Position numbers and translations under genes: made by a program. A DNA stretch of 55,625 nucleotides, from positions 1-55,625 of the forward strand of contig JAGOOA010000005.1 of assembly GCA_017992765.1 (NCBI GenBank), given 5' to 3'. Below are positions 1,539-52,550 of the stretch, in pieces. The DNA comes from Syntrophorhabdaceae bacterium (GTDB taxonomy: Bacteria > Desulfobacterota > Syntrophorhabdia > Syntrophorhabdales > Syntrophorhabdaceae). Position 1 is the stretch's first letter. Each line of letters starts with the position of its first letter. Under the pieces are notes generated by a model. The model was given only the letters and a program-made list of their open reading frames with translations, did no database searches and was not told the origin of the DNA.

Positions 1539-2034
1539 GGTGGTTCTCCAATACCTGTTCTTTATTTTCGTTGATCCTTAATATGTCGCCCAGGAGAGAA
1601 AAACATTGTACAAAAAAACAGAAAGCCAGAGCAAAGGCTGCGGGGTAAAGAGGCAGTCGCAGTGTCATGGTCACTTCCTCCGATTTGTGAAAGAGCATCC
1701 CCTTTTTCACCAGGTTCCACGAAATCAGGGCGTATATTATAATGCCGAGTATTCGTGTGCAGATGAAAAACGCGTTCTTTACCGCCTCAGATCGATTTTC
1801 AATAAGCATGTCAACGTAAACATGGCCCCTGTCCCATGAGGTTTTGGCAATAGCGAATCCGACGACCATGGCACCCATCATTGCCACCAGTTCGTAAGTC
1901 CCCACGATGGGTGTACCGACAGATCTGAGCACCACATCGACTACAGTGATCATCATCATCAGAACCAGAACAACCTCTGCAACCGTGTTCATCCAGATCG
2001 TACTCTTTTTTATCATCAGAGTGAGCGTTTCCAT
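1531..2034 (-). CDS. dctQ: TRAP transporter small permease (DctQ family)
   Basis: This 167-residue protein has the four hydrophobic segments expected of DctQ (around residues 14-36, 47-65, 90-110 and 130-150) and the usual family length. DctQ pairs with DctM in the inner membrane. The ATG at 2034 is preceded by a strong AGGAGG on the minus strand. The gene lies between dctP (64 bases upstream) and dctM (8-base overlap), the standard TRAP order P-Q-M. Assignment rests on membrane topology, size and position, since DctQ sequences are poorly conserved. Confidence 0.93.
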   Translation of the reverse strand: METLTLMIKKSTIWMNTVAEVVLVLMMMITVVDVVLRSVGTPIVGTYELVAMMGAMVVGFAIAKTSWDRGHVYVDMLIENRSEAVKNAFFICTRILGIIIYALISWNLVKKGMLFHKSEEVTMTLRLPLYPAAFALAFCFFVQCFSLLGDILRINENKEQVLENHHE

Positions 2035-2097
2035 ATATCCTCCTAAAACAATGCCGGGGCACTATCCCCGGCATTGTCATTGTTATACCGCTTGTTT

Positions 2098-3126
2098 TTA
2101 CTTCCTATGTTTTTTGAGATAGTCCCTGGCAAACTTCAATACTTCATCCCCGGGCAGGCCCTTGGCTTTCATATTCTTGAGATATTCGTCAAACACCGGC
2201 GCGGCAAGTTTTTCCCATCGAGCACTTTCCTGTGGCGACAGCTTGGTAATCTGATTGCCTCTCTTCAGAATGAATTGCTTTCCGGACTCATCAATGTCAT
2301 CCCAGAGCTTGGCCTGTTTCTCTATCCATTCTTTATTGATCTGTTCGATGATTTTCTGATCATTGGGAGATATGCTGTTCCATTTGCCCTTGTTCATGAA
2401 GACTGCAAAACATGAGCCATAAGACAACATGGGTATTTCTGTCGTATATTTAACGACCTCTCCATGTTTCCAGCCTTCCAAAGCTTCATACGCCCACAAA
2501 CCGCCGTCGACAACCCCTTTGGAGATAGCATCGTATGCTTCGCCCTGTTGCATTGCAACCGGTGTGGCCCCGAGGAGTAACATCATCTTCGCGTTGGGAC
2601 CATAAGTACGTATCTTCATACCCTTCAGGTCTTCTAATTTCGCGACAGGCTTTGACCTGGTATGAAGATTACCCGGACCAACAGAGTGGAGGTACATAAT
2701 TTTCACTTCGTCCAGTTCTTTTGGCTTAAATTTTGCGTAGTATTCATTCATCATACGTGTTGCAACGGACCCGCTGGGAATACCAAGGGGATAATCAAGG
2801 ACCTCTGAAAGAGGAAATTTTCCCATCGTATATGCAAGAACGGTATTACCCACATCGGCAACACCACCTACAACGCTATCATACGTCTGCGGTGCCGGGG
2901 TAAGCGTCGCACCGGCATAATGCGTAACCTTCACTCTCCCGTTTGTCCTTTTTTCCACCTCTTTACACCACTCTCCCGTTATCTTGGAATTCGCATGGCT
3001 TGGAGGAAAGAAAGTTGAAAACCTGAGTTTTACTTCCTTGTCCTGCGTGTTCCCTGTGTTGGCGAACATAAGTGTTACAGCGAAAAATACTGCTGCCATC
3101 AAAACAACTATCCGTATGCCTTTCAT
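2098..3126 (-). CDS. dctP: TRAP transporter periplasmic substrate-binding protein (DctP family)
   Basis: The 342-residue protein starts with a signal peptide (residues 1 to about 27, hydrophobic core IVVLMAAVFFAVTLMF) and continues as a DctP-type binding protein: LRFSTFFPPSH near the N terminus, the central GMKIRTYGPNAK segment with the Arg that in characterised DctP proteins holds the substrate carboxylate, and QGEAYDAISKGVVDGG. It would capture a carboxylated substrate in the periplasm and hand it to DctQM. AGGAGG sits just before the start. It is the first gene of the TRAP operon, downstream of a 339-base spacer that separates it from a two-component system, whose sensor may report on the same or a related substrate (inference). 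Confidence 0.94.
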   Translation of the reverse strand: MKGIRIVVLMAAVFFAVTLMFANTGNTQDKEVKLRFSTFFPPSHANSKITGEWCKEVEKRTNGRVKVTHYAGATLTPAPQTYDSVVGGVADVGNTVLAYTMGKFPLSEVLDYPLGIPSGSVATRMMNEYYAKFKPKELDEVKIMYLHSVGPGNLHTRSKPVAKLEDLKGMKIRTYGPNAKMMLLLGATPVAMQQGEAYDAISKGVVDGGLWAYEALEGWKHGEVVKYTTEIPMLSYGSCFAVFMNKGKWNSISPNDQKIIEQINKEWIEKQAKLWDDIDESGKQFILKRGNQITKLSPQESARWEKLAAPVFDEYLKNMKAKGLPGDEVLKFARDYLKKHRK

Positions 3127-29613: not shown

Positions 29614-30828
29614 CTATCTCGTCATGCCGCTCAGAACGTCAAGAAGGGCGCGGGCGAATTCCGGGTCGTTGATATGGCAGGGCAGAAGATGCAACTGCAC
29701 CTGCGGTGTGAGCTCGCCCTGTATGGTTTTGACAAAGACATCCACCGCGCCGGCGTCATAAAAGGGCCCGCCTTCTTTGTCCCAGGCGGAGAACCCTTTC
29801 ATGGGCACGACGACGGATACCGGGCCTTTTGCTTCGGCAAAATATTCTGTTAATCTTTTCGCGATGGACCTCACTTCATTTTTTTTGGTTCGTACCGTGG
29901 TAATGGCAGCATTATGAATGTGGTGCGGCCTTCCGGGAAAACGTTTCTTTGCAGCATTCAACGGGCCTGTAACGAGGAAATCGGTATTCCCCGGCACAAG
30001 GATCGTGGGCACCCCCTTCTTTAATGCAGCTAAGCCGCGGTCGGCGCCCGCATCGTAATCTCCCCCAAAGTAATGGTCCGCGAGCTCGTGCAGGGAGAGG
30101 TCGATCAACGCCTCCACATCTTCATCCCGGACGAACTCCTCCATTGCCTCGCCTCCCGACCCCACCGTATGGAAGACGATCACCTCCTTCCCGCTGTTCT
30201 CCAGCTCCTTCTTCACAATCTGGGCGCACGTTTCGGTGGTCCCAAGGGTTGAGAGGACCACAGGGGGGTCCGCATGGACGGGGAAGCTGACAGCCCCTTT
30301 CACCATGCCCGCCATGGCAAGGACGCCATTCCGGATGATCTTTTCGGTAATGCGGTTGATCCCGGAAAGATCACAAATCGAGTGGAGCATCAGGATGTCC
30401 TTTGTCCCCACAAACGAACGGGTGTTGCGGGATGCCATGGTCGTAAGCATGACCTTGGGGAAACCAACAGGGAACGCCCTCATGACCCCTGTGCCGAGGG
30501 TGGTTCCCATAGACCCCCCGATGCCTATGATCCCCTTGATCTTCCCTTGCCGGTACAAATCCTTTGCGCAGCGGGTCGCCCCTGCAGTCATCACTGCGAG
30601 CGATTCCCCTTCGCTTCCGAGGCCCTGCACTTCTGTCAACGTCATGCCTCCTGCCATCGCGACCTCTTCCCTTTCTACGGTCGCCGGCAAAGGAGATGTT
30701 CCCATAATGCCTGCGTCCAGCGAGAGAAAAGGGACGCCGCATTCCCTGAAGCACTCTTCGAGATAGAGGACCTCCCTGCCCTTGGTATCCATCGTCGCGA
30801 CTATCAGGACCGCACCCGCGTCTTCCAT
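29614..30828 (-). CDS. Tm-1-like ATP-binding domain protein (UPF0261 family)
   Basis: The 404-residue protein has the two-domain architecture of the Tm-1/UPF0261 family: N-terminal VLIVATMDTKGREVLYLEE with Rossmann-like features, GIIGIGGSMGTTLGTGVMRAFPVG, LMLHSICDLSGIN, then a C-terminal half with VFHTVGSGGEAMEEFV, LSLHELADHYFGGDYDAG and LVPGNTDFLV. Plant Tm-1 binds ATP and blocks viral replicase; bacterial members have no settled role. The ATG at 30828 with AAGGGGG upstream is preferred over a start 22 codons earlier. It is divergent from the thioesterase gene, with 180 bases between them. Confidence 0.9.
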   Translation of the reverse strand: MEDAGAVLIVATMDTKGREVLYLEECFRECGVPFLSLDAGIMGTSPLPATVEREEVAMAGGMTLTEVQGLGSEGESLAVMTAGATRCAKDLYRQGKIKGIIGIGGSMGTTLGTGVMRAFPVGFPKVMLTTMASRNTRSFVGTKDILMLHSICDLSGINRITEKIIRNGVLAMAGMVKGAVSFPVHADPPVVLSTLGTTETCAQIVKKELENSGKEVIVFHTVGSGGEAMEEFVRDEDVEALIDLSLHELADHYFGGDYDAGADRGLAALKKGVPTILVPGNTDFLVTGPLNAAKKRFPGRPHHIHNAAITTVRTKKNEVRSIAKRLTEYFAEAKGPVSVVVPMKGFSAWDKEGGPFYDAGAVDVFVKTIQGELTPQVQLHLLPCHINDPEFARALLDVLSGMTR

Positions 30829-30935
30829 ATAACCCCCTTGATGCTTTTTAAGGAACAATATCCCTGAACAGGACGTTGTTTGAATGATTATCATAAGAAA
30901 AAAATATTTGCAAGAGAGGCGGCTTATTCTTCCGC

Positions 30936-33323: not shown

Positions 33324-34199
33324 TTATCTCTTCAGGCCCTCGTAGAAAGAGCTCTCTTTTTTCCTCAGGTTGTTCAGGTCCATGAGCTCGTTGAATTCAT
33401 GGAAGTGGATCATCCTATCCATGAAACCGGCGGTGGTCCCTTTGGCCATCAGTTCATCCATGGCCTGCTTCACAGCCCAGGCAGCCGCATACAGGGCGGA
33501 GATGGGGTACACGACCACGTTGTAACCGATCTCTTCGAGCTCTTTCACGGTCATCATGGGGGTCTTCCCGCCTTCAAGCTGTATTACCTTGGTCGGCGCA
33601 TTCACCTCACGGTTGATACGCAGCATCTGCTCCTTTGTGGTCGGCGCTTCGACGAAGATCAGGTCCGCCCCTGCCTCGCGATACCTGTTGGCCCTTTCTA
33701 TCGCATCGTCTATTCCATTGACCCCGAGCGCATCCGTGCGGGCCATTATGACAAAGTCCTGGTCCATTCTCGCATCTACGGCGGCCTTGAGCTTCGCCAC
33801 CATATCGTCGGCCTCGATCACCTGCTTTCCTTCCATGTGGCCGCAGCGCTTCGGAAAGAGCTGATCCTCTATGAACATCCCCGCGGCGCCGGCCTTTTCA
33901 AATTCACGCACCGTTCTCATAACGTTGAGGGTGTTGCCGTGGCCGGTGTCTCCATCGGTGAAAACGGGTATATCAACTGCTTCTACGATATTCCGCGTGT
34001 GAGCGACCATCTCCGGCAATGTAACCAGGGAGAGGTCGGGCCTGCCGAGAAGGCATGCCGAGGTTGGATACCCTCCGAGCGTAAGCGTTTTAAAACCTGC
34101 TTTCTCTATGATTCTTGCCGAGGTTCCGTCGTATGCCCCCGGCATAACGAGAATCTCCTTATCCAGGATCAGTTTTTTAAGCAACGTCGTTTTTCTCAT
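33324..34199 (-). CDS. Isocitrate-lyase-superfamily C-C lyase (methylisocitrate / 2,3-dimethylmalate lyase type)
   Basis: The 291-residue protein starts at the ATG at 34199 with GGAGG five bases upstream. It has the PEP mutase/ICL barrel: ILVMPGAYDGTSARIIEKAG, PVFTDGDTGHGN with metal-binding Asp, the catalytic-loop motif KRCGHMEGK (as in methylisocitrate lyase), MARTDALGVNGIDDAIERA and FVEAPTTKEQ. Members with KRCGH cleave 2-methylisocitrate to pyruvate and succinate, or 2,3-dimethylmalate to pyruvate and propionate. It is the last gene of the operon. Its neighbours (LeuCD-type hydratase, PrpF-type isomerase, TRAP uptake) favour an imported branched acid as the source. Confidence 0.88.
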   Translation of the reverse strand: MRKTTLLKKLILDKEILVMPGAYDGTSARIIEKAGFKTLTLGGYPTSACLLGRPDLSLVTLPEMVAHTRNIVEAVDIPVFTDGDTGHGNTLNVMRTVREFEKAGAAGMFIEDQLFPKRCGHMEGKQVIEADDMVAKLKAAVDARMDQDFVIMARTDALGVNGIDDAIERANRYREAGADLIFVEAPTTKEQMLRINREVNAPTKVIQLEGGKTPMMTVKELEEIGYNVVVYPISALYAAAWAVKQAMDELMAKGTTAGFMDRMIHFHEFNELMDLNNLRKKESSFYEGLKR

Positions 34200-34300
34200 G
34201 TCGTCCTCCAATAAAAATTCTTTTGTGCAGTCAGCCGCACTTCTCCGAATATACAGAAAGTCCTCGCGATCACATCGAAAGGGCTAAATTCATCAGTTCA

Positions 34301-34810
34301 TCAACCGGAGCTTTTATCTCCCCTGTTCATCTTTTTCATAACAGATTCAACAAGGCCCCCCGCCGTGATCAGCTCTGTGACAAATTCAGGGTAAGGAACG
34401 GCCGAGAAGACAAGATCTTTTGTCGTATTTCGAACCGTGCCCGTCGAGAGATCGATCTCAAGGGCATCTCCCGGATCGCTTGCATCAACTGCTTCCGCAC
34501 ACTCAAGCAAGGGCAGACCGGTATTGATGGCATTCCGGAAAAATATCCTTGCAAAACTTTTGGCCACCACAGCCGCAACTCCTGCGCCTTTTATTGTAAC
34601 GGGAGCTATCTCACGGGAAGAACCGCACCCGAAGTTGGTCGTCGCCACAATGATGTCCCCTTTTTCCACCCTTTTTCCGAAATCGGGGTCTATATTTTCC
34701 ATACAGTGTTTGCCCAACTCCATCGGATCGGTAATATTCGCATATTTAGCAGCGATAATGGCATCGGTATCGATATTCTTGCCGAACTTATGAACTTTTC
34801 CACGGATCAT
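34301..34810 (-). CDS. LeuD-type small subunit of an aconitase-family hydro-lyase
   Basis: The 169-residue protein is a swivel-domain subunit: GKVHKFGKNIDTDAIIAAKY at the N terminus, FGCGSSREIAPVTIKGAGV and SFARIFFRNAINTGLPLLEC. It pairs with the LeuC-type protein, whose gene it overlaps by four bases (ATGA). The loop after IIAAKY, which contributes to substrate choice in isopropylmalate isomerases and homoaconitases, reads YANI at residues 23-26 instead of the patterns known for those enzymes. Dimethylmaleate hydratase, isopropylmalate isomerase and homoaconitase are all candidates; the PrpF and lyase neighbours favour the first or a relative. Confidence 0.9.
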   Translation of the reverse strand: MIRGKVHKFGKNIDTDAIIAAKYANITDPMELGKHCMENIDPDFGKRVEKGDIIVATTNFGCGSSREIAPVTIKGAGVAAVVAKSFARIFFRNAINTGLPLLECAEAVDASDPGDALEIDLSTGTVRNTTKDLVFSAVPYPEFVTELITAGGLVESVMKKMNRGDKSSG

Positions 34811-36066
34811 CGGTCAACCACCTCCTTGGGGTCTGTGAGCCTGCCGGTAACGGCGCTCGCTGCCGCCACCGCCGGATTGACAAGATATATCTCCGAGCGG
34901 GGGCTTCCCATCCGGCCTATAAAGTTCCGGTTTGTTGTTGAGGCGCATCTTTCCCCTGCTGCCAGGATGCCCATATGGCCTCCCACACAGGGACCGCATG
35001 TAGGGGGCCCCACAACGGCGCCCGCCCTGACAAAGACCTCTATGAGACCTGCCCGAAGCGCTGCCAGATAGACCTCCTGCGAACCAGGTATAACGATGCA
35101 CCGCACGTCAGAGTGTACCCTTTTATCACGGAGCACGCGGGCGGCATATTCAAAATCTTCCAGGCGGCCATTTGTGCAACTCCCGATCACAACCTGATCT
35201 ACCTTTATGTCGCTCACCTCGCTTACGCTGCGGACATTGTCGGGGCTGTGAGGTACGGCGACCTGAGGCTCAAGCTTTGAAACGTCATAATCGACTATGT
35301 CTGTATAGTCATCCTCGCTGTCGGTTGCATAGACCTTGTACGGCCTTGTTGACCTTCCGGCCACATATGTCCTGGTTTTCTCGTCTACAGCAAAAATCCC
35401 CGTTTTTGCGCCCGCCTCTATGGCCATATTCGCCATCGTGAACCTGCTGTCCATCGACAGCTCCTCGATCGCCTCTCCGGTGAATTCCATGGCCGCATAC
35501 AGCGCACCGTCAACGGTAATGCGGCCGATGGTGTAAAGGATCAGGTCCTTTCCGGTAACCCAGGGAGGAAGCTTTCCCCGGTAATTAAATTTAATGGTCG
35601 GCGGGACCTTCATCCAGATCTCCCCGGTAACCATCGCCACGGCAATGTCGGTAGAGCCCATGCCCGTGGCAAAGGCCCCGAGCGCTCCGTACGTACAGGT
35701 GTGCGAATCTGCGCCCACCACAACATCGCCGGGCAATACCAGCCCTTTTTCCGGCAGATAGACGTGCTCTATCCCGCCGTCAACCGCTTCTACAAATAGC
35801 AGGCCGTGTTTTTTTGAAAATTCCCTCAGCCGCTTGATCTGCTCCGCAGCGGCCACATCTTTATTGGGAAAAAAGTGATCCATGACAAAAACGACCTTTT
35901 TGGGATCAAAGGGTCTTTTTGCGCCCATCCTTTCAAACTGATCCGCTGCTATATGGGCCGTAAGGTCGCTTGCCATGACCATGTCTACCTTTACATTGAC
36001 AAACTCGCCGACCTTAACCGATTCTTTCCCGGCATGGGCCGACAGTATCTTTTCCGCCAAAGTCAT
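34807..36066 (-). CDS. LeuC-type large subunit of an aconitase-family hydro-lyase
   Basis: The 419-residue protein is an aconitase-superfamily large subunit: FVMDHFFPNKDVAAAEQIK, VVGADSHTCTYGALGAFATGMGSTD, and the three [4Fe-4S] ligands Cys297 (IGSCTNGR), Cys357 and Cys360 (GPPTCGPCVGGH). Such enzymes move or add water across a C=C bond of a di- or tricarboxylate. It is the 3-isopropylmalate dehydratase/homoaconitase length class. Biosynthetic leucine genes (leuA, leuB) are absent here, whereas a TRAP transporter, a PrpF-type isomerase and a C-C lyase surround it, so a catabolic role is more likely. Confidence 0.92.
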   Translation of the reverse strand: MTLAEKILSAHAGKESVKVGEFVNVKVDMVMASDLTAHIAADQFERMGAKRPFDPKKVVFVMDHFFPNKDVAAAEQIKRLREFSKKHGLLFVEAVDGGIEHVYLPEKGLVLPGDVVVGADSHTCTYGALGAFATGMGSTDIAVAMVTGEIWMKVPPTIKFNYRGKLPPWVTGKDLILYTIGRITVDGALYAAMEFTGEAIEELSMDSRFTMANMAIEAGAKTGIFAVDEKTRTYVAGRSTRPYKVYATDSEDDYTDIVDYDVSKLEPQVAVPHSPDNVRSVSEVSDIKVDQVVIGSCTNGRLEDFEYAARVLRDKRVHSDVRCIVIPGSQEVYLAALRAGLIEVFVRAGAVVGPPTCGPCVGGHMGILAAGERCASTTNRNFIGRMGSPRSEIYLVNPAVAAASAVTGRLTDPKEVVDR

Positions 36067-36123
36067 TTAATCCTCCTCATAGGGTTTTGCCTGTATGCTG
36101 CAGGATCATTCACATTCGGCCCG

Positions 36124-37236
36124 TCATACATACACACAGCCTTCCATGATCCTTCTCGCGGTCCGGTACATCACCGCCTTCTCCAGCTCGAATGCCCCGC
36201 CTTCATCACGGCAGCGCACATCCACGTTGATAAGGCCCGAGAAGTGGCCGATTATCACAGTCTCCCTGTTCTTATCCGCAGGGGAAATAAACTCGTCTAC
36301 GATCGATCCCTTCAATTTTGCAGCCACCCCCGTAGTAACGCAGCCCGTTCCGGGATAGGCCTTGTGCATCATTCCGGCAGCGTATATCTTCGACATAATG
36401 GTGACGCCTTCCGTTTTCATGGGCGCTCCGGTAATGAAGTTCGTCCACGGCACAGGCTCCTGGACCAATGCAAGCATCGGCATGAAGATGCTTTTCCCTT
36501 CCAGCTTTGCCAGGCGCGCCGCTTCGAGGCGTATCTGTTCCAGGGATTCGATCAACTTCCTGTCCGCGTCCATATCCCTTGCCGCTTCTGTCCCTTTGAG
36601 GCCAAGATCCCTGGCCCTCACGAAGGCTACCGGCGTTGAGACATCGATGATCGTGGCCTCGATCTTGCCCACGCCTTTGACATCGAGCACATCCTTCCGG
36701 TTTCCCGTCGGCAAGAGGCTTCCCGTCAGGATCCCCGCAGTGCCTGAATAGTCCAGGGATATCTTCGAACTCGTGCCCGGCACACCGTCGATTGCGTAGC
36801 TGCCCTCGTAGACCGCTTTGCCGGCGCCTGTCTCGAACTCAAGACCGAGGTACTTGTCTACATTCCTGCAAAAGACCCTCACGGTCGTTCGCGGCCCCTG
36901 AGCCCTTACCAGCCCCTCGTCAACGGCAAAGGGACCAACCGCTGCGGACAGGTTGCCGCAGATCGTACCCCAGTCAATGACCGGCTCGGTGACGCTGACC
37001 TGTCCGAATACATAATCCACGTCTGCGTCCTTCCTGCTGGGCGGCCCTACAATGGCCACCTTGCTTGTCAGCAGATCGGCGCCGCCAAGGCCGTCTATCT
37101 GTCTCTTGTCGGGGCTCCCCAGGACCCTGAGGACCGTTTTCGTTCTTTCCTCGATGTTTTCGGGCAGTTCATTGTCATGGAAGAAGACTCCCTTGCTCGT
37201 GCCGCCTCTCATGATCACACATTTAAGTTTTGCCAT
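36124..37236 (-). CDS. PrpF-family cis-trans / double-bond isomerase (methylitaconate or methylaconitate isomerase type)
   Basis: The 370-residue protein has the PrpF family fold: CVIMRGGTSKGVFFH at the N terminus, DGLGGADLLTSKVAIVG with Lys59, and WGTICGNLSAAVGPFA with Cys93; the 34-residue Lys-Cys spacing is that of PrpF's catalytic pair as I recall it. Known members are 2-methylaconitate isomerase (PrpF), 3-methylitaconate delta-isomerase (Mii) and 4-oxalomesaconate tautomerase (GalD). It would rearrange the double bond of the imported acid before hydration by the LeuCD-type enzyme encoded 57 bases downstream. No methylcitrate synthase is present, arguing against a plain methylcitrate cycle. 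Confidence 0.9.
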   Translation of the reverse strand: MAKLKCVIMRGGTSKGVFFHDNELPENIEERTKTVLRVLGSPDKRQIDGLGGADLLTSKVAIVGPPSRKDADVDYVFGQVSVTEPVIDWGTICGNLSAAVGPFAVDEGLVRAQGPRTTVRVFCRNVDKYLGLEFETGAGKAVYEGSYAIDGVPGTSSKISLDYSGTAGILTGSLLPTGNRKDVLDVKGVGKIEATIIDVSTPVAFVRARDLGLKGTEAARDMDADRKLIESLEQIRLEAARLAKLEGKSIFMPMLALVQEPVPWTNFITGAPMKTEGVTIMSKIYAAGMMHKAYPGTGCVTTGVAAKLKGSIVDEFISPADKNRETVIIGHFSGLINVDVRCRDEGGAFELEKAVMYRTARRIMEGCVYV

Positions 37237-37303
37237 TTTTCCTTACCTCCATTTTTGTCCAAAATCCACTAACGTGTCTTACGCCTCATGCTCCCCTTTC
37301 AGG

Positions 37304-38620
37304 CTAAGAGCCGAATACAAGGTTGGGCAGCCACAGGCTCAATTCAGGAAATACTATGAGGATGGTCAGCACGCACAGGTCACATGCCAAAAAGGGCATA
37401 ATCCCCTTGAAGGCATCCTCAAGCGATACCTGCCCTTCAGCGGCGGCGACCGCAACATACACGTTCATCCCGACGGGCGGCGTGATCTGGCCTATTTCAC
37501 ACATCTTAATGAGGAATATCCCGAACCAGATGGGATCGAATCCAAGCTGCATGACAACCGGGAAGACAACCGGAATAGTGATACACAAGATCGCTACTGA
37601 ATCGAGAAGCATGCCGAGCACAAAGTAGAGCAAGGCAAGACTGAACAGGAACGCTGCGCGTGATATGTGGGCATCACTGAGAAAAGAGGCCACATTGACC
37701 GGCAACTGGGTCACGCTCAGAAACCGTCCGAATATTATCGCCCCTATGATAACAAGAAAGATCATTCCCGTGGCCTTCATGCAGTCGACCAGTGCAGTGG
37801 GTATCTGGGTTTGCCGGATACCTTTCTTTACCACGGCGAAAAGAAGGGTGCCGAAAGCGCCCACGGCGGCTCCCTCTGTGGCCGTGAACCAGCCGGCAAA
37901 AATGCCGCCCAGAACAAGGGCTGCAAAAAATATTATAGGCCATATCGAGACGAGCGCCCTCACCTTCTCGCTCAGCCTGTAACCCTCCTTGACAAGAGGC
38001 GCCAGCGATGGTTTTCTTCGAACCCTTATATAGATCAGAGCTGAAAAGGCAAATGCCGATATGAAACCGGGCACGAACCCCGCCATGAACATCCTGCCAA
38101 TCGACTGTTCGGTCAGTATGCAGTAAATGATCATCAAGCCGCTTGGCGGGATCAGGGTGGCAAAGGTGCCGGCTGAGCTGATCGTGCCGATTGAAAGCTT
38201 TTTGTCCATTCCACGCTTCAGCATTTCCGGTAATGCTATCTTTGTAAAGATACCTGCCGTGGCAAGGGAGGAGCCGCAGATCATTCCGAAGAATGCGGAG
38301 GCAAAGGTGGTAGCAATGGCAAGGCCGCCGTGCAGCCTCCCCAGGAGCTTGCTCATCGCCTCATACACCATCGCCCCTATGCCTCCGTTCAGGGCAAAGG
38401 ACCCCATAAGAAGAAAAAGCGGCAAGGGACTGAGATCATAGGAGGCTGCCACCGCAAAAGGGCTCGATCCAATTATGTCGAGGCCGCCCCTTGCCCCCAT
38501 CAAAAGGCACATGCCGGCCCCTCCGATAAGGCTCAATGCCAACCCTATGTGGAGGCCTGAGAAGATGAGCATAAGAAGAGCGGCTACGCCTGCGGTTCCT
38601 ACCAGTGTCGGGTCCATCAT
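37304..38620 (-). CDS. dctM: TRAP transporter large permease (second system)
   Basis: The 438-residue integral membrane protein belongs to the DctM family: GGAGMCLLMGARGGLDIIG, GTFATLIPPSGLMIIYCILTEQ, FAGWFTATEGAAVGAFGTL and MCEIGQITPPVGMNVYV. It is distinct in sequence from the first DctM (237-1538). Start follows dctQ by four bases with GAGGAGATGAGG upstream. Being cotranscribed with the isomerase, hydratase and lyase genes, it probably imports the substrate of that pathway by sodium symport. Confidence 0.95.
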   Translation of the reverse strand: MMDPTLVGTAGVAALLMLIFSGLHIGLALSLIGGAGMCLLMGARGGLDIIGSSPFAVAASYDLSPLPLFLLMGSFALNGGIGAMVYEAMSKLLGRLHGGLAIATTFASAFFGMICGSSLATAGIFTKIALPEMLKRGMDKKLSIGTISSAGTFATLIPPSGLMIIYCILTEQSIGRMFMAGFVPGFISAFAFSALIYIRVRRKPSLAPLVKEGYRLSEKVRALVSIWPIIFFAALVLGGIFAGWFTATEGAAVGAFGTLLFAVVKKGIRQTQIPTALVDCMKATGMIFLVIIGAIIFGRFLSVTQLPVNVASFLSDAHISRAAFLFSLALLYFVLGMLLDSVAILCITIPVVFPVVMQLGFDPIWFGIFLIKMCEIGQITPPVGMNVYVAVAAAEGQVSLEDAFKGIMPFLACDLCVLTILIVFPELSLWLPNLVFGS

Positions 38621-38624
38621 CGCC

Positions 38625-39113
38625 TCATCTCCTCTCGTCGGTTATTGTCTTTGATTTCCCCTCGGGGCGCAGCAGGCTGATGATCAACTGAACCAGGAAC
38701 AGAACGAACCCTACAAAAACCCCGCCTTTTGCCCAGTACACAGGCATTTGAAAGCTTGCGCCGGGCAGGGCTTCCCGAATACTGTATGAATCGAAAAAGT
38801 TAAGTGCGGTCTGCCAGCTCATTACGGCCACGGTGATAACCGCCAGGACATAAACACATATTTTGACGATACGGGCCGCCCTGGCCGGTAAACGCTGTAC
38901 TACCAGTTGTGCGGAGACATGCTGCTTCGCCTCTTCGCACGGGGAAAATCCGGCAAACACGGAGAGGGCAAGGAAGATGCCTACAATCTCGATGACGCCC
39001 TCGATAGAGGCGCCGAAGACAAACCGGCTCACCACCTCGACCACCAGGAGGATCATGATGAGAAATATGAGCATACTGCCGATAGTCGCCGATATTCTGT
39101 TACGGATCGTCAT
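38625..39113 (-). CDS. dctQ: TRAP transporter small permease (second system)
   Basis: A 162-residue protein with four hydrophobic segments (SMLIFLIMILLVVEVVSRFVFG, VGIFLALSVFAGF, VYVLAVITVAVMSW and VFVGFVLFLVQLIISLL), the DctQ layout. It lies between dctP and dctM in standard order. The 66-base gap after dctP contains nothing notable. Confidence 0.92.
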   Translation of the reverse strand: MTIRNRISATIGSMLIFLIMILLVVEVVSRFVFGASIEGVIEIVGIFLALSVFAGFSPCEEAKQHVSAQLVVQRLPARAARIVKICVYVLAVITVAVMSWQTALNFFDSYSIREALPGASFQMPVYWAKGGVFVGFVLFLVQLIISLLRPEGKSKTITDERR

Positions 39114-39179
39114 TTCTCACCTCGCTATTCACATGAGCCATTGATGCTTTTCAAGGCTCTGATATGTACCGGGGGGCCG

Positions 39180-40265
39180 CTATTTTGAATATTTCTCGAC
39201 CAGCTTCTTCGCCCGATCCATCAGAACCTTTCCCGGCTGTTTTTGTTCCTCGGCCTTCTTGACCCATTTTTCCAGGGACTCCTTTTCGCTCGCGGCAGCC
39301 CACGCGTTTACCTCTGAAACCGGGAGATCGACAACGGTGGCTCCCGCGGTCTTCATCTTGCTCTTGATGTCAACTTCCAGCGTCTTGATCTCGGACGCGA
39401 TCTTTTTTCCATATTCCTTGCCTACGTCGGTTATCACCTTCTGCACATCGGGGCTCAAGCCGTCCCACACCTTCTGGTTGATCGTAATAAGGGCGACAGA
39501 ACCGGTGAATTGAGGAACGACGAGGACCGTGTGCTGTTTGCCGATCTCAAAAAGTCTGTATTTGAAGTAGGAGATAAAGGCCGTGTAGTTGGCCTGAACA
39601 GCTCCCTTCTCCATTGCCGAGTAGATCTCCGTTCCAGGCAGGAAGACCACCTTGGCGCCCAACGCGGTCATATGCTCTGCGTCATAGCCTCCCGCACAGC
39701 GGATCCTCAGACCCTTCAGGTCGCTCAGCGATTTGAGGGGCCGCGGTCCGCCGGCGGCCATCTGACCGAAGTAATGAATAGCGACAAGCTTCTGGTTGTA
39801 TGCCTTCAGGGCGGTCTGGAGCTCCGGGGATTGGTCGTATAGCTCGGAAAAGAATTCAGCCTTTTTCGCAGGGTCCACAGGGCCGCGGATAAAGGGCTCG
39901 CCAATGCTCCACAGCGTCAGCTCCCGGGGAAAGTACGGGACGAAAATATACCCCATATCTGCCGCTCCCGACTGAACGCCCCGGAGCGTCTCTCTCTCCT
40001 TCAATAACGATCCTGCAAAATAATTCTGAAACTTCACTGCCCCTTTTGTCCTCTTTTCGATCTCTTCCGTGAGCCATGTCATGGCTTCGCCTTCGAGCCC
40101 CCTCTGGGGAGTATAGATTGCAAAGCGAATCGTCTTGGTTTCTCCGTAGGATGGAGTTGTTCCGGCAAAGAATAGCGCCAGGACGAGCGCACACAATATC
40201 AGACAGCTCCCCAACCCTGCAATCAATCCTGAATCACCATACCTTAAGGCCCTTGATCTTTTCAT
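39180..40265 (-). CDS. dctP: TRAP transporter periplasmic binding protein (second system)
   Basis: From the ATG at 40265 (AGGAGG seven bases upstream; an ATG two codons earlier is too close to it) the 361-residue protein has a long signal peptide (hydrophobic core LGSCLILCALVLALFFAG) and a DctP domain: IRFAIYTPQRGLEGEAMTWL, GAVKFQNYFAGSL, LSDLKGLRIRCAGGYDAEHM with the carboxylate-binding Arg, and EIYSAMEKGAVQANYT. It binds the organic acid handled by the operon's enzymes. The first DctP in the window differs strongly, so the two systems import different substrates. Confidence 0.94.
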   Translation of the reverse strand: MKRSRALRYGDSGLIAGLGSCLILCALVLALFFAGTTPSYGETKTIRFAIYTPQRGLEGEAMTWLTEEIEKRTKGAVKFQNYFAGSLLKERETLRGVQSGAADMGYIFVPYFPRELTLWSIGEPFIRGPVDPAKKAEFFSELYDQSPELQTALKAYNQKLVAIHYFGQMAAGGPRPLKSLSDLKGLRIRCAGGYDAEHMTALGAKVVFLPGTEIYSAMEKGAVQANYTAFISYFKYRLFEIGKQHTVLVVPQFTGSVALITINQKVWDGLSPDVQKVITDVGKEYGKKIASEIKTLEVDIKSKMKTAGATVVDLPVSEVNAWAAASEKESLEKWVKKAEEQKQPGKVLMDRAKKLVEKYSK

Positions 40266-40313
40266 TGGCATTCCTCCTTTTGATATGACCGGGCGTCCGG
40301 AAAACGCCCCTGA

Positions 40314-40907
40314 TCATTTTTTTGTGGTAAACACCACCAGGAACCTGGCAGGTTTATCCCCTATGCTCCTTGAGTAATGAGGCTTGTTGGAATCAAAGAT
40401 ATAACAGTCGCCCTCTTCCATAATATAGCTTTTGCCGTCATAGACGAATTCCTGCTTGCCCTCCAGCATGAGGGTCAGCTCCTCTCCTTCATGTATCAAC
40501 GGTTCCTTTGGGAATTCAAAAGCGGCGGTCAGCATAAAGGCATCCATCAGCCTGTTCACCTTTTTGTACGTCAGGGATTCATACCGGTACTCAGGTCTCC
40601 CGTTCGGCCTGACGACCGTTCGACGTTCCGCAGGCTTGATGATTGAAAGGTGTTCCTCGTTTTCCCTCGGGATCTCGCCTGTCAGCAGAAAAACGACATC
40701 GACATTGAGTACGTATGCTATTTTTGTCAGGGTGCTTATCGGCGGCTCCCTCTTCATATTTTCTATCTGAGAAAGATAGCTTTTGGCAAACCCTGTCTTT
40801 TTTGCCAACTCTTCTAAAGTAATACCCTTATTTCTTCTTAACATATTGATTCTATTAGCTATAGATTCCTGCATCTCTTTTGTTTTCTGTTCGGCAGCCC
40901 TCATCAT
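40314..40907 (-). CDS. XRE-family regulator with C-terminal cupin domain
   Basis: The 197-residue protein has an N-terminal helix-turn-helix (about residues 15-75, IANRINMLRRNKGITLEELA, TGFAKSYLSQIENMKREPP) and a C-terminal cupin_2 barrel (about 110-195, HEGEELTLMLEGKQEFVYDG, GDCYIFDSNKPHYSRSIG). Such HTH-cupin proteins sense a small molecule in the cupin pocket and control adjacent transport and catabolic genes. It is the first gene of the eight-gene operon and its promoter overlaps an inverted repeat TTAGCAAA/TTTGCTAA, a likely operator. If the predicted promoter is right, the mRNA would start at or within a base or two of the first ATG; Met12 is an alternative start. Confidence 0.92.
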   Translation of the reverse strand: MMRAAEQKTKEMQESIANRINMLRRNKGITLEELAKKTGFAKSYLSQIENMKREPPISTLTKIAYVLNVDVVFLLTGEIPRENEEHLSIIKPAERRTVVRPNGRPEYRYESLTYKKVNRLMDAFMLTAAFEFPKEPLIHEGEELTLMLEGKQEFVYDGKSYIMEEGDCYIFDSNKPHYSRSIGDKPARFLVVFTTKK

Positions 40908-40914
40908 AGTTTTA

Positions 40915-40942
40915 TAATTACACTATTAGCAAACTTTGTCAA
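40915..40942 (-). promoter_or_regulatory. Promoter of the XRE-cupin/TRAP operon
   Basis: On the minus strand TTGACA (40942-40937) is followed after 16 bases by TAATTA (40920-40915). The -10 box ends eight bases before the ATG at 40907, predicting a leaderless or nearly leaderless transcript. Confidence 0.6.
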
Positions 40943-40968
40943 GAATAAATGCGATTATTTTTTGCTAA
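40926..40968. promoter_or_regulatory. TTAGCAAA/TTTGCTAA inverted repeat, putative operator
   Basis: TTAGCAAA at 40926-40933 and its exact reverse complement TTTGCTAA at 40961-40968 flank the -35 box of the XRE-cupin promoter, one half lying in the spacer between -35 and -10. Half-sites are 35 bases apart, centre to centre. This placement suits autoregulation by the XRE protein. A related arrangement occurs at the trkA promoter (44662-44711). Confidence 0.5.
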
Positions 40969-41044
40969 AAGAAGACATTAAGGATCTTGAGCTGTTAAAT
41001 GTGGAATAACCGAGGCTGAACGAAAAGGGCGGCCTCTTGGCGCC

Positions 41045-47549: not shown

Positions 47550-48461
47550 CTACCTGCTCCCCTTTTCGGCAAGGGCCTTTCCAAACAGCGCTGCGCCGAT
47601 CGCGCCTGCGATCTGCGTATCAAAGGGGAACCCTTTATCTGCATAGTACCGATTGTGCCACTTGGCCTCACAGGCCTCGAAGCCGAGCTCTTGCGTGAGC
47701 CTTTTCACGACGCCCTGGTTCTTTGCGATCCCGCCGGTTATGGCAAATTCTCTTTCCACGTTTACCTTTTCGAGGAGCGATAGGACCCTGTGCGCCATTG
47801 CGGAACAGTATGCTGCGAGGACTTTCTCTTTAGGCCATCCTGCGCGGAGCAGTGTCCCTGCCTCCGATTTTGCGAAAATAACGCATGTCGAGTTCACTGG
47901 AGGAGGTTCTTCGGCAACGCTCAAGGACATGTCGCCAACATCTTCAATGGGAACGCCGAGGAGGTCCGCGAAAACCTCCATGCCCCGGCCTGTGCCTGCC
48001 GCGCACTTGTCATTCATCAGAAAGGCAACGACCTTGCCTTTATCGTCGATCTTGATGGCCTTGCAGTCCTGGCCGCCCATATCGAGGACGGTCCGCACCG
48101 CGGGGCCATACATCCAGTTCGCGCCCTTTGCATGGCACGCGATCTCTGTTATTGCCCTGTTGCCGAAAGGCACATTGACGCGGCCGTAGCCTGTGCCAAC
48201 GGTAAAATGAATATCTCTCAACGCCAGGCCGGTTCCTTCTGTTGCCTTGTTGAAAGCGTTGATCGCGCTGTCCGGGCTGCTGGAGCCGGTCCTCATATTG
48301 CCGTAGCAGTAAAGCTCGCCGTCTACCATGATAACGCCTTGCGTGCTGACGGAACCGACGTCAACGCCTGCCGTGATAAGTTTGCCCTTCTTCCAATCGA
48401 TCTCAGGGTTTGCCCATCGAGATTCCGGCCATCTCCAGAATTCCTTCTTTCCGTCTGCCAT
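47550..48461 (-). CDS. bzdQ: BcrA/BadF/BzdQ-type ATPase subunit (benzoyl-CoA reductase type)
   Basis: The 303-residue protein is an ASKHA-fold ATPase with phosphate loop ITAGVDVGSVSTQGVIM, adenosine loop TVLDMGGQDCKAIKI, and the two cysteines that share a [4Fe-4S] cluster between subunits, NDKCAAGTGRGMEVF and STCVIFAKSEAG. A 30-residue N-terminal extension rich in Trp (EFWRWPESRWANPEIDWKKGK) is, as I recall, typical of BzdQ. Such subunits couple ATP hydrolysis to electron transfer into benzoyl-CoA reductase. It is followed in the operon by nothing and preceded by the BzdP-like gene; the reductase subunits are absent from the window. Confidence 0.85.
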   Translation of the reverse strand: MADGKKEFWRWPESRWANPEIDWKKGKLITAGVDVGSVSTQGVIMVDGELYCYGNMRTGSSSPDSAINAFNKATEGTGLALRDIHFTVGTGYGRVNVPFGNRAITEIACHAKGANWMYGPAVRTVLDMGGQDCKAIKIDDKGKVVAFLMNDKCAAGTGRGMEVFADLLGVPIEDVGDMSLSVAEEPPPVNSTCVIFAKSEAGTLLRAGWPKEKVLAAYCSAMAHRVLSLLEKVNVEREFAITGGIAKNQGVVKRLTQELGFEACEAKWHNRYYADKGFPFDTQIAGAIGAALFGKALAEKGSR

Positions 48462-48465
48462 AGCG

Positions 48466-49245
48466 TTATACCTCCATCCTTTGCTCTGCTGCTGCGATGG
48501 CGGCGCCTATTGCGCCGACGTACTGGGGATCCGCGGGAACTCCTATTTTGATGTTCAGCTCTCCCTCTATGGCTTTGATAAATCCCCCGTTGAGGGCCAT
48601 GCCGCCGATCGCGGCTACGTCTTTCTCAACGCCGACCCTTCTCATCATGGACACGATCCTGTCCCCGATCGCATTGAGCACTGCCCGTGCGATATCCGCC
48701 TTTGCGGTCTGCGAGTGGATAAGGGACACAAGCTCTGACTCGGCAAAGACCGCGCATTGGGCGTTCATGTCGATCTCTTTTGTGGACCTGTCGTAGAGAT
48801 CACCCATTTTTTCGACCTCTGTCTCAAGGGCCCTCGCCATTGCTTCTACAAATGTTCCAGCCCCTGCCGCACATTTTTCATTTATTGCAAAATCAACGAC
48901 GTCGCCGTGCTGGCTTATCCTGACCGCCCTTCCCTCCTCGGCTCCCACATCGATGACTGTGCGGACATCGGGCATAACGAACCTGATCCCCCTTGCGTCA
49001 GCGTCCGCCTCTGTTACCTCACCCTGTGCACAATCACAGCTCTTCCTTCCCACGCCGGTAGCAAGGACCTTGCGGACATCTTTTTTTTCGGCGCCGGCCG
49101 CCTTTAGCGCCTCATTATATACATTTTCAGCGGTTGTCTTCGTATCAAGGCCTGCAGGCGCCATTGCCTTTCCGACAACCCTGCCGTCCTTCATGATCAC
49201 CGCCTTCACGTTCTTTGCACCGCTGTCTATACCTGCCGTTATCAT
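48466..49245 (-). CDS. bzdP: BcrD/BadG/BzdP-type ATPase subunit (benzoyl-CoA reductase type)
   Basis: From the ATG at 49245 (AAGGAGG six bases upstream; the longer frame has an unrelated 46-residue start) the 259-residue protein has ITAGIDSGAKNVKAVIM, the second loop TVIDVGAEEGRAVRI (the BcrD/BzdP variant of DxGGQD), and cluster cysteines in NEKCAAGAGTFVE and NAQCAVFAESEL. It would form a heterodimer with the BzdQ-like protein encoded four bases downstream. ATP-driven electron activation of an aromatic acyl-CoA or of a 2-hydroxyacyl-CoA dehydratase is the known family role; the partner enzyme is not visible here. Confidence 0.85.
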   Translation of the reverse strand: MITAGIDSGAKNVKAVIMKDGRVVGKAMAPAGLDTKTTAENVYNEALKAAGAEKKDVRKVLATGVGRKSCDCAQGEVTEADADARGIRFVMPDVRTVIDVGAEEGRAVRISQHGDVVDFAINEKCAAGAGTFVEAMARALETEVEKMGDLYDRSTKEIDMNAQCAVFAESELVSLIHSQTAKADIARAVLNAIGDRIVSMMRRVGVEKDVAAIGGMALNGGFIKAIEGELNIKIGVPADPQYVGAIGAAIAAAEQRMEV

Positions 49246-49505
49246 CCCGTACCTCCTTGCGACGGTTTTTGCATTCCTGACGTTTCCACGGGGGCATCGT
49301 TCCGTGCCGCTATCATTCAATGCCAACCTTGTGCTTAAATTAACAAAATCAAACGATGTTATCAACACATAAAGGGGGGACATTTGTTCGGCGTGCGCCT
49401 AAACTCAATAAACGCTGTCAACGGGTTTCATTGCTGACCCCTTATGGCTGCAAAAATAGCTCATACCAGTGGCCGGCAAGCTGGCAAGAATAGTGGCTTT
49501 TGTGC

Positions 49506-50938: not shown

Positions 50939-50953
50939 GTGAAGGAGGAGTGT

Positions 50954-52135
50954 ATGGCAAAAGATGTAGCAGTAATCGGTGTGGGCCAGAGTTCGTTCGT
51001 AAGAGGCTATGAAGGCTCCATCAGGGAACTCGCCTTTGAAGCATTCAGGGAGGCCATGCAGGATGCGGGCATCACGCAAAAGGATGTTGATGCTTCTATC
51101 TTCTGTTCAGCCCCTGAATATGACAAGCAGCGGTCGCCTGCCGGTGTCCTTGCTGAGTACATGGGGTTGATCCCCCAGCCGACCTTCTATATTGAGACCG
51201 TCTGCTCATCGAGCAGCTCCGGCGTGAAGGTAGCATATAGCATGATCAAGGCAGGCCTCCATGACGTCGTCGTGGTGCTCGGATTCCAGAAGATGTCGGA
51301 GATCACATCCGCCGAGTCCCAGGAGAGGATGGGGCGTGGCGCAGATATCCAGTGGGAGGCTCCTTTCGGCACAATGATGCCCGCCTACTATGCGCTGTAC
51401 GCACAGGCCTACATGGCGAAGAACGGGCTGACGCACGACGACATGATGAATATAAGGATAAAGTCAGGCACATACGGTCAGACAAACGAGAGGGCGGTCT
51501 ACCGGAAGGGCGTGAAGGCGTCAGATTTCGATACGAGCAACCCCGATGCGAGGATGGCCGGTGCAGTCGCATGGCCGATCAGGGTAGGCGATGCCTGTGC
51601 CAATGCAGACGGCAGTTCCTGCGTCATCCTGGCGAACGCGGAAAAGGCAAAGGCATTCTCGAAAAAACCTGTGTGGATACTCGGTATAGGCGCCGCCTCC
51701 GAAGCCGTTAACATGGCGGCAAGGCCTGATTTCGCGAAAGGATTAAGCGTCGGTTACGGGGCAGCGAATGAGGCATACAAGATGGCGGGCATAACGGCAA
51801 AGGACGTGAAGGTAGCCGAAGTACACGACTGCTTTACCATTGCCGAGATCATGGCCTATGAAGGCCTTGGGTTCGCGCCGATGGGCGAAGGCAAGCAGCT
51901 CATCCGCGAAAAGGCAACGTACAAGGAAGGAAGGATCCCGGTCAATGTCGACGGCGGCCTTCTCTCCAAAGGGCATCCGATCGGTGCGACCGGCGGCTCA
52001 CAGATACGGACGATCGTCCTGCAGCTCCGCGACGAGGCAGGCCAGATGCAGGTGCCCGGCAGCCCGGACATCGGCCTCGTTCATAACGTCGGTGGCGTTG
52101 GCCTCTACGGCAACGTGACAATCTTTGGGAGGTGA
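50954..52135 (+). CDS. SCP2-type thiolase family protein
   Basis: From the ATG at 50954 (AAGGAGGAG four bases upstream) the 393-residue protein has thiolase features: VAVIGVGQSSFVRG, the active-site Cys in ETVCSSSSSGVKVAYSM, EVHDCFTIAEIMAYEGLG and GGLLSKGHPIGATGGSQ with the catalytic His. The second Cys of classical thiolases (CxG near the end) is replaced (NVGGVGLYGNVT), as in SCP-x/archaeal-type thiolases. It would join or cleave acyl-CoA units together with the OB-fold protein encoded four bases downstream. Confidence 0.92.
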   Translation: MAKDVAVIGVGQSSFVRGYEGSIRELAFEAFREAMQDAGITQKDVDASIFCSAPEYDKQRSPAGVLAEYMGLIPQPTFYIETVCSSSSSGVKVAYSMIKAGLHDVVVVLGFQKMSEITSAESQERMGRGADIQWEAPFGTMMPAYYALYAQAYMAKNGLTHDDMMNIRIKSGTYGQTNERAVYRKGVKASDFDTSNPDARMAGAVAWPIRVGDACANADGSSCVILANAEKAKAFSKKPVWILGIGAASEAVNMAARPDFAKGLSVGYGAANEAYKMAGITAKDVKVAEVHDCFTIAEIMAYEGLGFAPMGEGKQLIREKATYKEGRIPVNVDGGLLSKGHPIGATGGSQIRTIVLQLRDEAGQMQVPGSPDIGLVHNVGGVGLYGNVTIFGR

Positions 52136-52139
52136 TATA

Positions 52140-52550
52140 ATGGGATTCGAAAAATTTGGAAGAAAAAGCTTTACCGGCATAACAAAAACGTCGAAGTTCG
52201 TTGACTTGCTTGCAGAAGGAAAGATCGAAGGGACAGTATGCAAAAAATGCGGCGCCAAATTCTTCCCGCCAAGGGCGGATTGCGCAAGCTGTCTCTCAAA
52301 AGATATGGACTGGTTCGAGATGCCGAAAACAGGCAAGCTCGAGACCTTTACTGTTGCCTCTTATGCACCGTTCGGCTTTGAGAAGGATTGTCCCTATACT
52401 ATGGGCGTAGTCGATTTCGGCGATCTCAAGCTCTTCGCAAGGCTTGCAAAAGATCTCAAGACCGAGGATGTAAAGGTCGGCATGGATGTTACCGTCAAGA
52501 CCCTGCAGTATGAAGACGGCCAGATGTCCTTTGAGATAGCAAAGGCGTGA
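52140..52550 (+). CDS. DUF35 Zn-ribbon/OB-fold protein, thiolase partner
   Basis: The 136-residue protein has an N-terminal helix (FVDLLAEGKIEGTV), a zinc ribbon CKKCGAKFFPPRADCASC and a C-terminal OB-fold (LETFTVASYAPFGFEKDCPYTMGVVDFG). DUF35 proteins bind SCP2-type thiolases and, in the archaeal thiolase/HMG-CoA synthase complex, hold a shared CoA tunnel. GGGAGGTGAT stands before the ATG, and the stop of the thiolase is four bases away, so the two are almost certainly one complex. Confidence 0.92.
   Translation: MGFEKFGRKSFTGITKTSKFVDLLAEGKIEGTVCKKCGAKFFPPRADCASCLSKDMDWFEMPKTGKLETFTVASYAPFGFEKDCPYTMGVVDFGDLKLFARLAKDLKTEDVKVGMDVTVKTLQYEDGQMSFEIAKA

Follow-up and report, generated by a model that had tools for sequence, protein, structure and literature searches.

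A TRAP-linked operon of a Syntrophorhabdaceae bacterium, probably for coenzyme A-independent uptake and cleavage of a branched unsaturated dicarboxylate

In the lower nicotinate route of Eubacterium barkeri, branched diacids are processed by 2-methyleneglutarate mutase (Mgm), 3-methylitaconate isomerase (Mii), the hydratase DmdAB and the lyase Dml, and import of an itaconate-type acid by a tripartite ATP-independent periplasmic (TRAP) transporter is known from the IctPQM system of Pseudomonas aeruginosa (PMC12599236). Elements reminiscent of both are found together in an eight-gene operon at positions 33324-40907 of a 55,625-nucleotide stretch of Syntrophorhabdaceae bacterium DNA (assembly GCA_017992765.1, contig JAGOOA010000005.1), referred to in full as the window. 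This operon is probably a locally regulated unit for the uptake and coenzyme A (CoA)-independent cleavage of a branched unsaturated dicarboxylate of the itaconate/maleate type. No publication describing these genes as a set turned up in the literature searched.

The eight intact genes, all read in one direction from the minus strand, encode an XRE-cupin regulator, DctP, DctQ, DctM, a PrpF-family protein, LeuC, LeuD and a lyase of the isocitrate lyase (ICL) superfamily, with families assigned by Pfam and NCBIfam profiles. The gaps from the regulator to LeuD are 42, 66, 4, 67, 57 and -4 nucleotides, and the last, between LeuD and the lyase, is 89 if the lyase begins at the TTG at 34211 or 101 if it begins at the ATG at 34199, which is preceded by GGAG. 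The sequence-only reading from which this analysis departs had described eight closely spaced minus-strand genes of these families, and the coordinates of the open reading frames (ORFs) and both profile sets confirm it. The G+C content of the enzyme and transporter genes (53-54%) is near that of the surroundings (52%), and the regulator gene alone stands at 45%. Because gene order is kept in related metagenome-assembled genomes (MAGs) at protein identities of 81-99%, and the ratio of nonsynonymous to synonymous substitution rates (dN/dS) against orthologues is about 0.04-0.15 for the tested genes, indicating strong purifying selection, the gene set is no chance arrangement.

The reaction classes of the three predicted enzymes, isomerase, hydratase and C-C lyase, are well supported by family and motif, and from them we infer a likely course of events. 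DctPQM would import the diacid, the PrpF-family enzyme would move its double bond by allylic isomerisation, turning a substituted itaconate into a substituted maleate, LeuCD would hydrate this to a substituted malate, and the lyase would cleave the malate in a retro-aldol-type reaction to a 2-oxoacid and a carboxylic acid. With dimethylmalate the products would be pyruvate and propionate, and two methylmalonyl-CoA-mutase-type genes in the genome could take up propionate, if that is the product. The XRE-cupin protein would sense the substrate or an intermediate and act at a palindrome over its own promoter.

The putative delta-isomerase (36124..37236, minus strand) is Mii-like: its best PDB match is Mii itself (3g7k, 47% identity), and bit scores are 311 against Mii, 226 against PrpF and 201 against GalD. 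The catalytic Lys59 and Cys93, corresponding to K73 and C107 of SoPrpF, are retained. In the family tree the protein belongs to a separate 14-row clade (support 100) within the Mii-like group, at a distance from PrpF and GalD that agrees with the kinship to Mii proposed earlier; all Mgm-linked Mii fall elsewhere, outside this clade. Residues specific to the clade are Cys123, Tyr285, Ala287 and Phe332, the last of these lying in an otherwise invariant GHP motif. The gene is the one PrpF-family member in the genome, which is 95% complete.

The predicted hydratase, an iron-sulphur (Fe-S) hydro-lyase, is made up of a LeuC-type large subunit (34807..36066, minus strand; PF00330, TIGR02083) and a LeuD-type small subunit (34301..34810, minus strand; PF00694). 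The window LeuC lies in an 11-row clade (support 100/96) inside the bacterial LeuC radiation, with members solely from PrpF-linked modules, and the genome's own LeuC, 58% identical, lies in a separate clade; a tree joining the window clade to the biosynthetic LeuC of the genus was rejected at the borderline by the approximately unbiased (AU) test (p-AU 0.048). Nicotinate-type clusters were recovered for comparison from E. aggregans (locus L086) and Moorella (locus L028, Mgm-Mii-GlmL-Dml-DmdA-DmdB), and their two DmdA served as references, with E. barkeri DmdA outside the set and the Mii of E. aggregans matching the E. barkeri structure at 96.7% identity. Joining the window clade to both DmdA was rejected at p-AU 7e-13, with a cost of 244 log-likelihood units, and joining it to Moorella DmdA alone at p-AU 0.004. 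The sequence-only reading had held that grouping with biosynthetic isopropylmalate isomerases would speak against it; the window LeuC does fall within the LeuC radiation, but in a clade of its own, and such grouping cannot discriminate because nicotinate-cluster DmdA also groups with LeuC.

In the small subunit, Ala24 is found in all ten module proteins where 18 of 18 nicotinate-cluster and biosynthetic enzymes have Leu, so that the loop reads YANI rather than YLxx, and Ile68 is found in nine of the ten where the same 18 have His (GSSREI rather than GSSREH), the exception being Gln68 of Desulfonema magnum. In isopropylmalate isomerase these two regions are the substrate-recognition loop and the substrate-binding motif, and the loop sets substrate preference in Arabidopsis (PMC7308503). 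The change from Leu to Ala in the loop suggests room for a larger substituent.

The history of the nicotinate hydratases is itself informative. The DmdA of the E. aggregans cluster (L086, 14942-16711) is sister to the biosynthetic LeuC of the same organism (L140; support 100/99), which marks it as a recent recruitment of the leucine enzyme. Most other nicotinate clusters (L030-L043 and similar, about 6.3-8.1 kb) carry an older LeuCD type (about 40% identity) whose genes precede that of the mutase, and the route is thus served by two distinct lineages of hydratase. Given the position of the E. aggregans DmdA beside its own LeuC and the rejection of a joint clade, dimethylmaleate-hydratase-type enzymes have been recruited from LeuC more than once.

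The lyase (33324..34199, or to 34211; minus strand; PF13714), of the ICL/phosphoenolpyruvate (PEP)-mutase superfamily, has petal death protein (1zlp) as its best solved relative. The motif KRCGH (K-[KR]-C-G-H) is present and the metal-binding D82 and D84 are invariant in the alignment. It carries EGGKTP and GY, as do Dml and petal death protein, whereas the methylisocitrate lyase motifs TEFGATP and GGG are absent; by motif and tree it appears nearer the former two, as had been proposed for Dml from sequence. Its own 9-row clade is Dml-like in these motifs and changed at active-site Asn and Thr positions, with deep branching that the tree leaves unsettled. At the position of Gly42 most relatives have Ser or Thr, and in place of Ile206-Gln207 relatives have Asn followed by Met, Ile or Leu; by residue numbering Gly42 and Ile206 correspond to Ser45 and Asn210 of E. 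coli PrpB, two residues with roles presumed from the superfamily. D. magnum keeps the Asn, and locus L020 uses a different lyase. An AlphaFold model (predicted local distance difference test, pLDDT, 83.5) gave superfamily-level matches in a fold search, with no preference for one activity.

These enzymes invite comparison with lower nicotinate chemistry acting on imported 3-methylitaconate or dimethylmaleate, in which methylitaconate would pass through dimethylmaleate and 2,3-dimethylmalate to propionate and pyruvate. This is unlikely, even though the three reaction classes are the same, Mii is the nearest relative of the isomerase, EGG[K/R]TP is common to the lyase and Dml, and the DmdA of the Moorella cluster is 64% identical to the window LeuC. 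As the sequence-only reading had stated, the mutase is missing: in the genome and the genus the Mgm search matched isolated B12-binding-domain fragments only, and genomes with real nicotinate clusters gave full-length matches in the same search. The LeuC-DmdA clade is rejected as above, and the operon has replacements at substrate-region residues that do not vary in Mii, Dml and DmdB. We know of no extracellular source of methylitaconate. The earlier identification of these enzymes, in order, with those of the nicotinate route does not survive, since LeuC and the PrpF-family protein fall in their own clades, DmdA was recruited separately and the substrate regions differ; what stands of that interpretation includes the three reaction classes, the kinship to Mii and Dml and the absence of the mutase. 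Direct orthology with the nicotinate-cluster enzymes is rejected for LeuC by the AU test and for the isomerase by its clade, and is left undecided by the lyase tree. As judged from these comparisons, the module is not a transplanted lower nicotinate route.

Compared with the nicotinate enzymes, positions that hardly vary elsewhere are altered in the isomerase, in LeuD and in the lyase. For this reason 3-methylitaconate is probably not the substrate, and a bulkier or differently substituted relative is favoured. Should it be a bulkier diacid, the operon would represent a so far undescribed CoA-independent pathway of anaerobes for a bulky 2,3-disubstituted butenedioate (itaconate or maleate bearing an alkyl or aryl group), with LeuCD, Mii-like isomerase and petal-death-protein-like lyase separately recruited, spread between Bacillota and Desulfobacterota-type bacteria, and with its own XRE-cupin sensor. 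This fuller proposal is put forward tentatively, at somewhat less than even confidence; among the substrates considered the bulkier diacid ranks first, and an appreciable share of the probability goes to substrates other than those discussed here.

The transporter bears on a second candidate substrate. The TRAP set is complete, its three subunit families being recognised by Pfam: DctP, the solute-binding protein (39180..40271; PF03480, E 2e-35), DctQ, the small membrane subunit (38625..39113; PF04290), and DctM, the large membrane subunit (37304..38620; PF06808, TIGR00786), all on the minus strand. The ligand-binding Arg191 of DctP, in the stretch KGLRIRCAGGYD, is invariant in orthologues. The best structure matches of DctP are 4mco, 4n6d and 4pgn, and the C4-dicarboxylate/IctP structures 9HT3, 9DTL and 9DSY are absent from its 60 best matches, although they do appear among those of a gut-clostridial DctP. 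Binding of malonate or indole-type acids is reported for 4mco, 4n6d and 4pgn/4nap. The AlphaFold model of DctP has a pLDDT of 58.7. A separate DctM-DctQ-DctP-like set lies at 237-3126 (minus strand) of the window, and the organism has several TRAP systems.

A CoA-free itaconate/citraconate route could be imagined, from itaconate through citraconate to citramalate (or 3-methylmalate) and on to acetate and pyruvate (or glyoxylate and propionate). C5 malates are acted on by LeuCD-type enzymes and by petal death protein. Mii is active on itaconate too (PMC4720413), and P. aeruginosa imports itaconate through a TRAP system (PMC12599236). The known bacterial pathway, Ict-Ich-Ccl, is however CoA-dependent (PMC12290011), DctP falls outside the IctP/C4-dicarboxylate binders, and the Leu-to-Ala change in the LeuD loop argues against a smaller substrate; we consider this route slightly more doubtful still than the nicotinate chemistry.

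A tricarboxylate route, a TRAP-fed tail of the methylcitrate cycle in which aconitate or methylaconitate would give isocitrate or methylisocitrate and then succinate with glyoxylate or pyruvate, agrees with the family annotation (PrpF, PrpB, aconitase-type) but is very improbable: the isomerase is far from PrpF, the lyase lacks the methylisocitrate lyase signature, Asn210 included, and no Si-type citrate/methylcitrate synthase (PF00285) is found in the genome. The same missing synthase and the motif and tree of the lyase lead us to reject the methylcitrate cycle as such, which the sequence-only reading had already ranked as the weaker fit. That LeuCD duplicates the isomerase of leucine biosynthesis and came to lie next to unrelated catabolic genes by chance is hardly credible and is rejected despite the 58% identity to the genome's own LeuC, as a full leuA-leuC-leuD-asd block lies elsewhere in the genome, the LeuC tree separates the two, and the module clade with its loop and motif changes is specific to PrpF-lyase neighbourhoods.

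Three observations weigh against a CoA-independent uptake-and-cleavage operon for an itaconate/maleate-type acid. The LeuC score is above the curated TIGR02083 cut-off for 3-isopropylmalate dehydratase, a point that also favours a duplicate leucine enzyme; DctP is nearer to binders outside the C4-dicarboxylate subfamily, so that the transported compound may be something other than a simple dicarboxylate; and with the equivalents of Ser45 and Asn210 replaced in the lyase, the cleavage reaction itself could be altered.

The case for local regulation of this uptake-and-cleavage operon comes from its upstream end. The regulator gene (40314..40907, minus strand) encodes an XRE-family helix-turn-helix (HTH) protein with a cupin domain (Pfam HTH_3 and Cupin_2), from which its putative sensing role follows. 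Ahead of it lies the best promoter-like match in the region, a sigma-70-like TTGACA-17-AATTAT with extended TG (40914..40942, minus strand), and overlapping this is a candidate operator, the inverted repeat CTWTTAGCAAA / TTTGCTAAWAG, with arms at 40923-40933 and 40961-40971. Promoter and both arms are kept in all seven aligned upstream regions, a conserved footprint in flanking DNA that has diverged. In five species the exact palindrome occurs at one site per whole genome (0 for the reversed-pattern control), and the regulator therefore looks dedicated to this operon; outside the genus group the palindrome was looked for in the D. magnum and L021 genomes and is absent from both. The XRE-cupin gene is also first in the operon in six related MAGs and locus L029, and in D. 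magnum (L022) a homologue (49%) lies ahead of the enzyme genes. The attachment of a transporter and a regulator to the enzymes, noted earlier, is borne out by gene content.

The operon is present in all seven genomes of its own genus that were examined and in a single genome from a further genus of the family (L016), where IS-like ORFs lie upstream; it was not found in the remaining genomes of a 46-genome sample of the class, a count that leaves out a distant PrpF homologue (33%) in one genome. It is thus a core unit of the genus with a patchy, probably horizontal, spread beyond it; a tblastn search against plasmids found relatives at below 60% identity only. The four enzyme genes are grouped across two phyla with TRAP genes present or absent. 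Both occur together in several MAGs labelled Deltaproteobacteria (L012-L016, L029, L065, L020 and L021), and TRAP genes are absent within about 10 kb of the four-enzyme set in the Bacillota Desulfosporosinus sp. Tol-M and Desulfotomaculum UBA7919 and in D. magnum, so that the earlier description of a TRAP-linked operon holds in the genus but not for the wider family. A TRAP-PrpF-lyase-LeuCD operon of independent origin, with unrelated TRAP genes and a C4-type DctP, is found in gut clostridia, and this repeated pairing supports an imported substrate. Independent PrpF-lyase-LeuCD operons of this gut-clostridial kind were seen at L078 (4744-14853), L072 and L085, the first adding TRAP, MmgE/PrpD and 2-hydroxyacid dehydrogenase genes; the lyases of L072 and L078 keep a methylisocitrate-lyase-like EFGKTP, and the substrate there may be a tricarboxylate.

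Several neighbouring and related loci deserve mention. A UPF0261 (Tm-1-like) protein of unknown function is encoded near the operon (29614-30894), as it is in L013. By eye, two tandem BadF/BadG-type ATPase-like ORFs lie at 47550-49383, with a possible link to aromatic ring reduction or 2-hydroxyacyl-CoA dehydratase, and a thiolase-like gene followed by a small OB-fold/DUF35-like gene at 50939-52550 resembles the arrangement in benzylsuccinate-type pathways. Elsewhere in the genome, a second TRAP-linked aconitase-type locus (L092, contig C17, 3426-13728) has a LeuCD pair set among three MmgE/PrpD-family genes, with DctP-DctQ-DctM running divergently from these. A further block (L093, contig C12, 5093-9817) encodes an HMGL-like synthase of 609 aa with a Cache-like C-terminal part, isocitrate dehydrogenase and, next to the latter, a further LeuCD of aconitase-like type; the genome lacks Si-citrate synthase, and the block likely encodes a Re-citrate synthase whose sensor-like tail is unusual.

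If the uptake-and-cleavage reading is correct, anaerobic syntrophic bacteria would possess a free-acid route, without CoA, for the breakdown of branched diacids, and would carry transporter, sensor and the three enzymes as a single testable unit. Breakdown enzymes would have arisen from the leucine-synthesis Fe-S isomerase on several occasions: in two nicotinate clusters, this module and the gut TRAP operon. Automatic annotation would name these genes isopropylmalate dehydratase and methylisocitrate lyase, and so assign them wrongly to leucine synthesis and propionate metabolism. The reaction classes and families are known; their combination, independent assembly and altered pockets are new.

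Parallels with the described systems are instructive. With the lower nicotinate route the operon shares the isomerase, Fe-S hydratase and ICL-superfamily lyase classes, Mii being 47% and the Dml of E. aggregans 46% identical to their counterparts, but it has no mutase or upstream genes, adds the TRAP transporter and the XRE-cupin protein, and differs in isomerase and hydratase clades and in substrate-region residues. The AcnD/PrpF methylcitrate cycle likewise has PrpF-family and PEP-mutase/ICL-family genes, together with a methylcitrate synthase, an AcnD and a methylisocitrate-type lyase that are all missing here. The Ict-Ich-Ccl pathway with IctPQM ties TRAP uptake to the breakdown of a branched unsaturated diacid in the same manner, yet acts on CoA esters with unrelated enzymes and a solute-binding protein of another subfamily. 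LeuCD of leucine biosynthesis, finally, has the same fold and overall sequence as the hydratase of the operon, from which it is set apart by clade, genome context, substrate-recognition loop and GSSREH motif.

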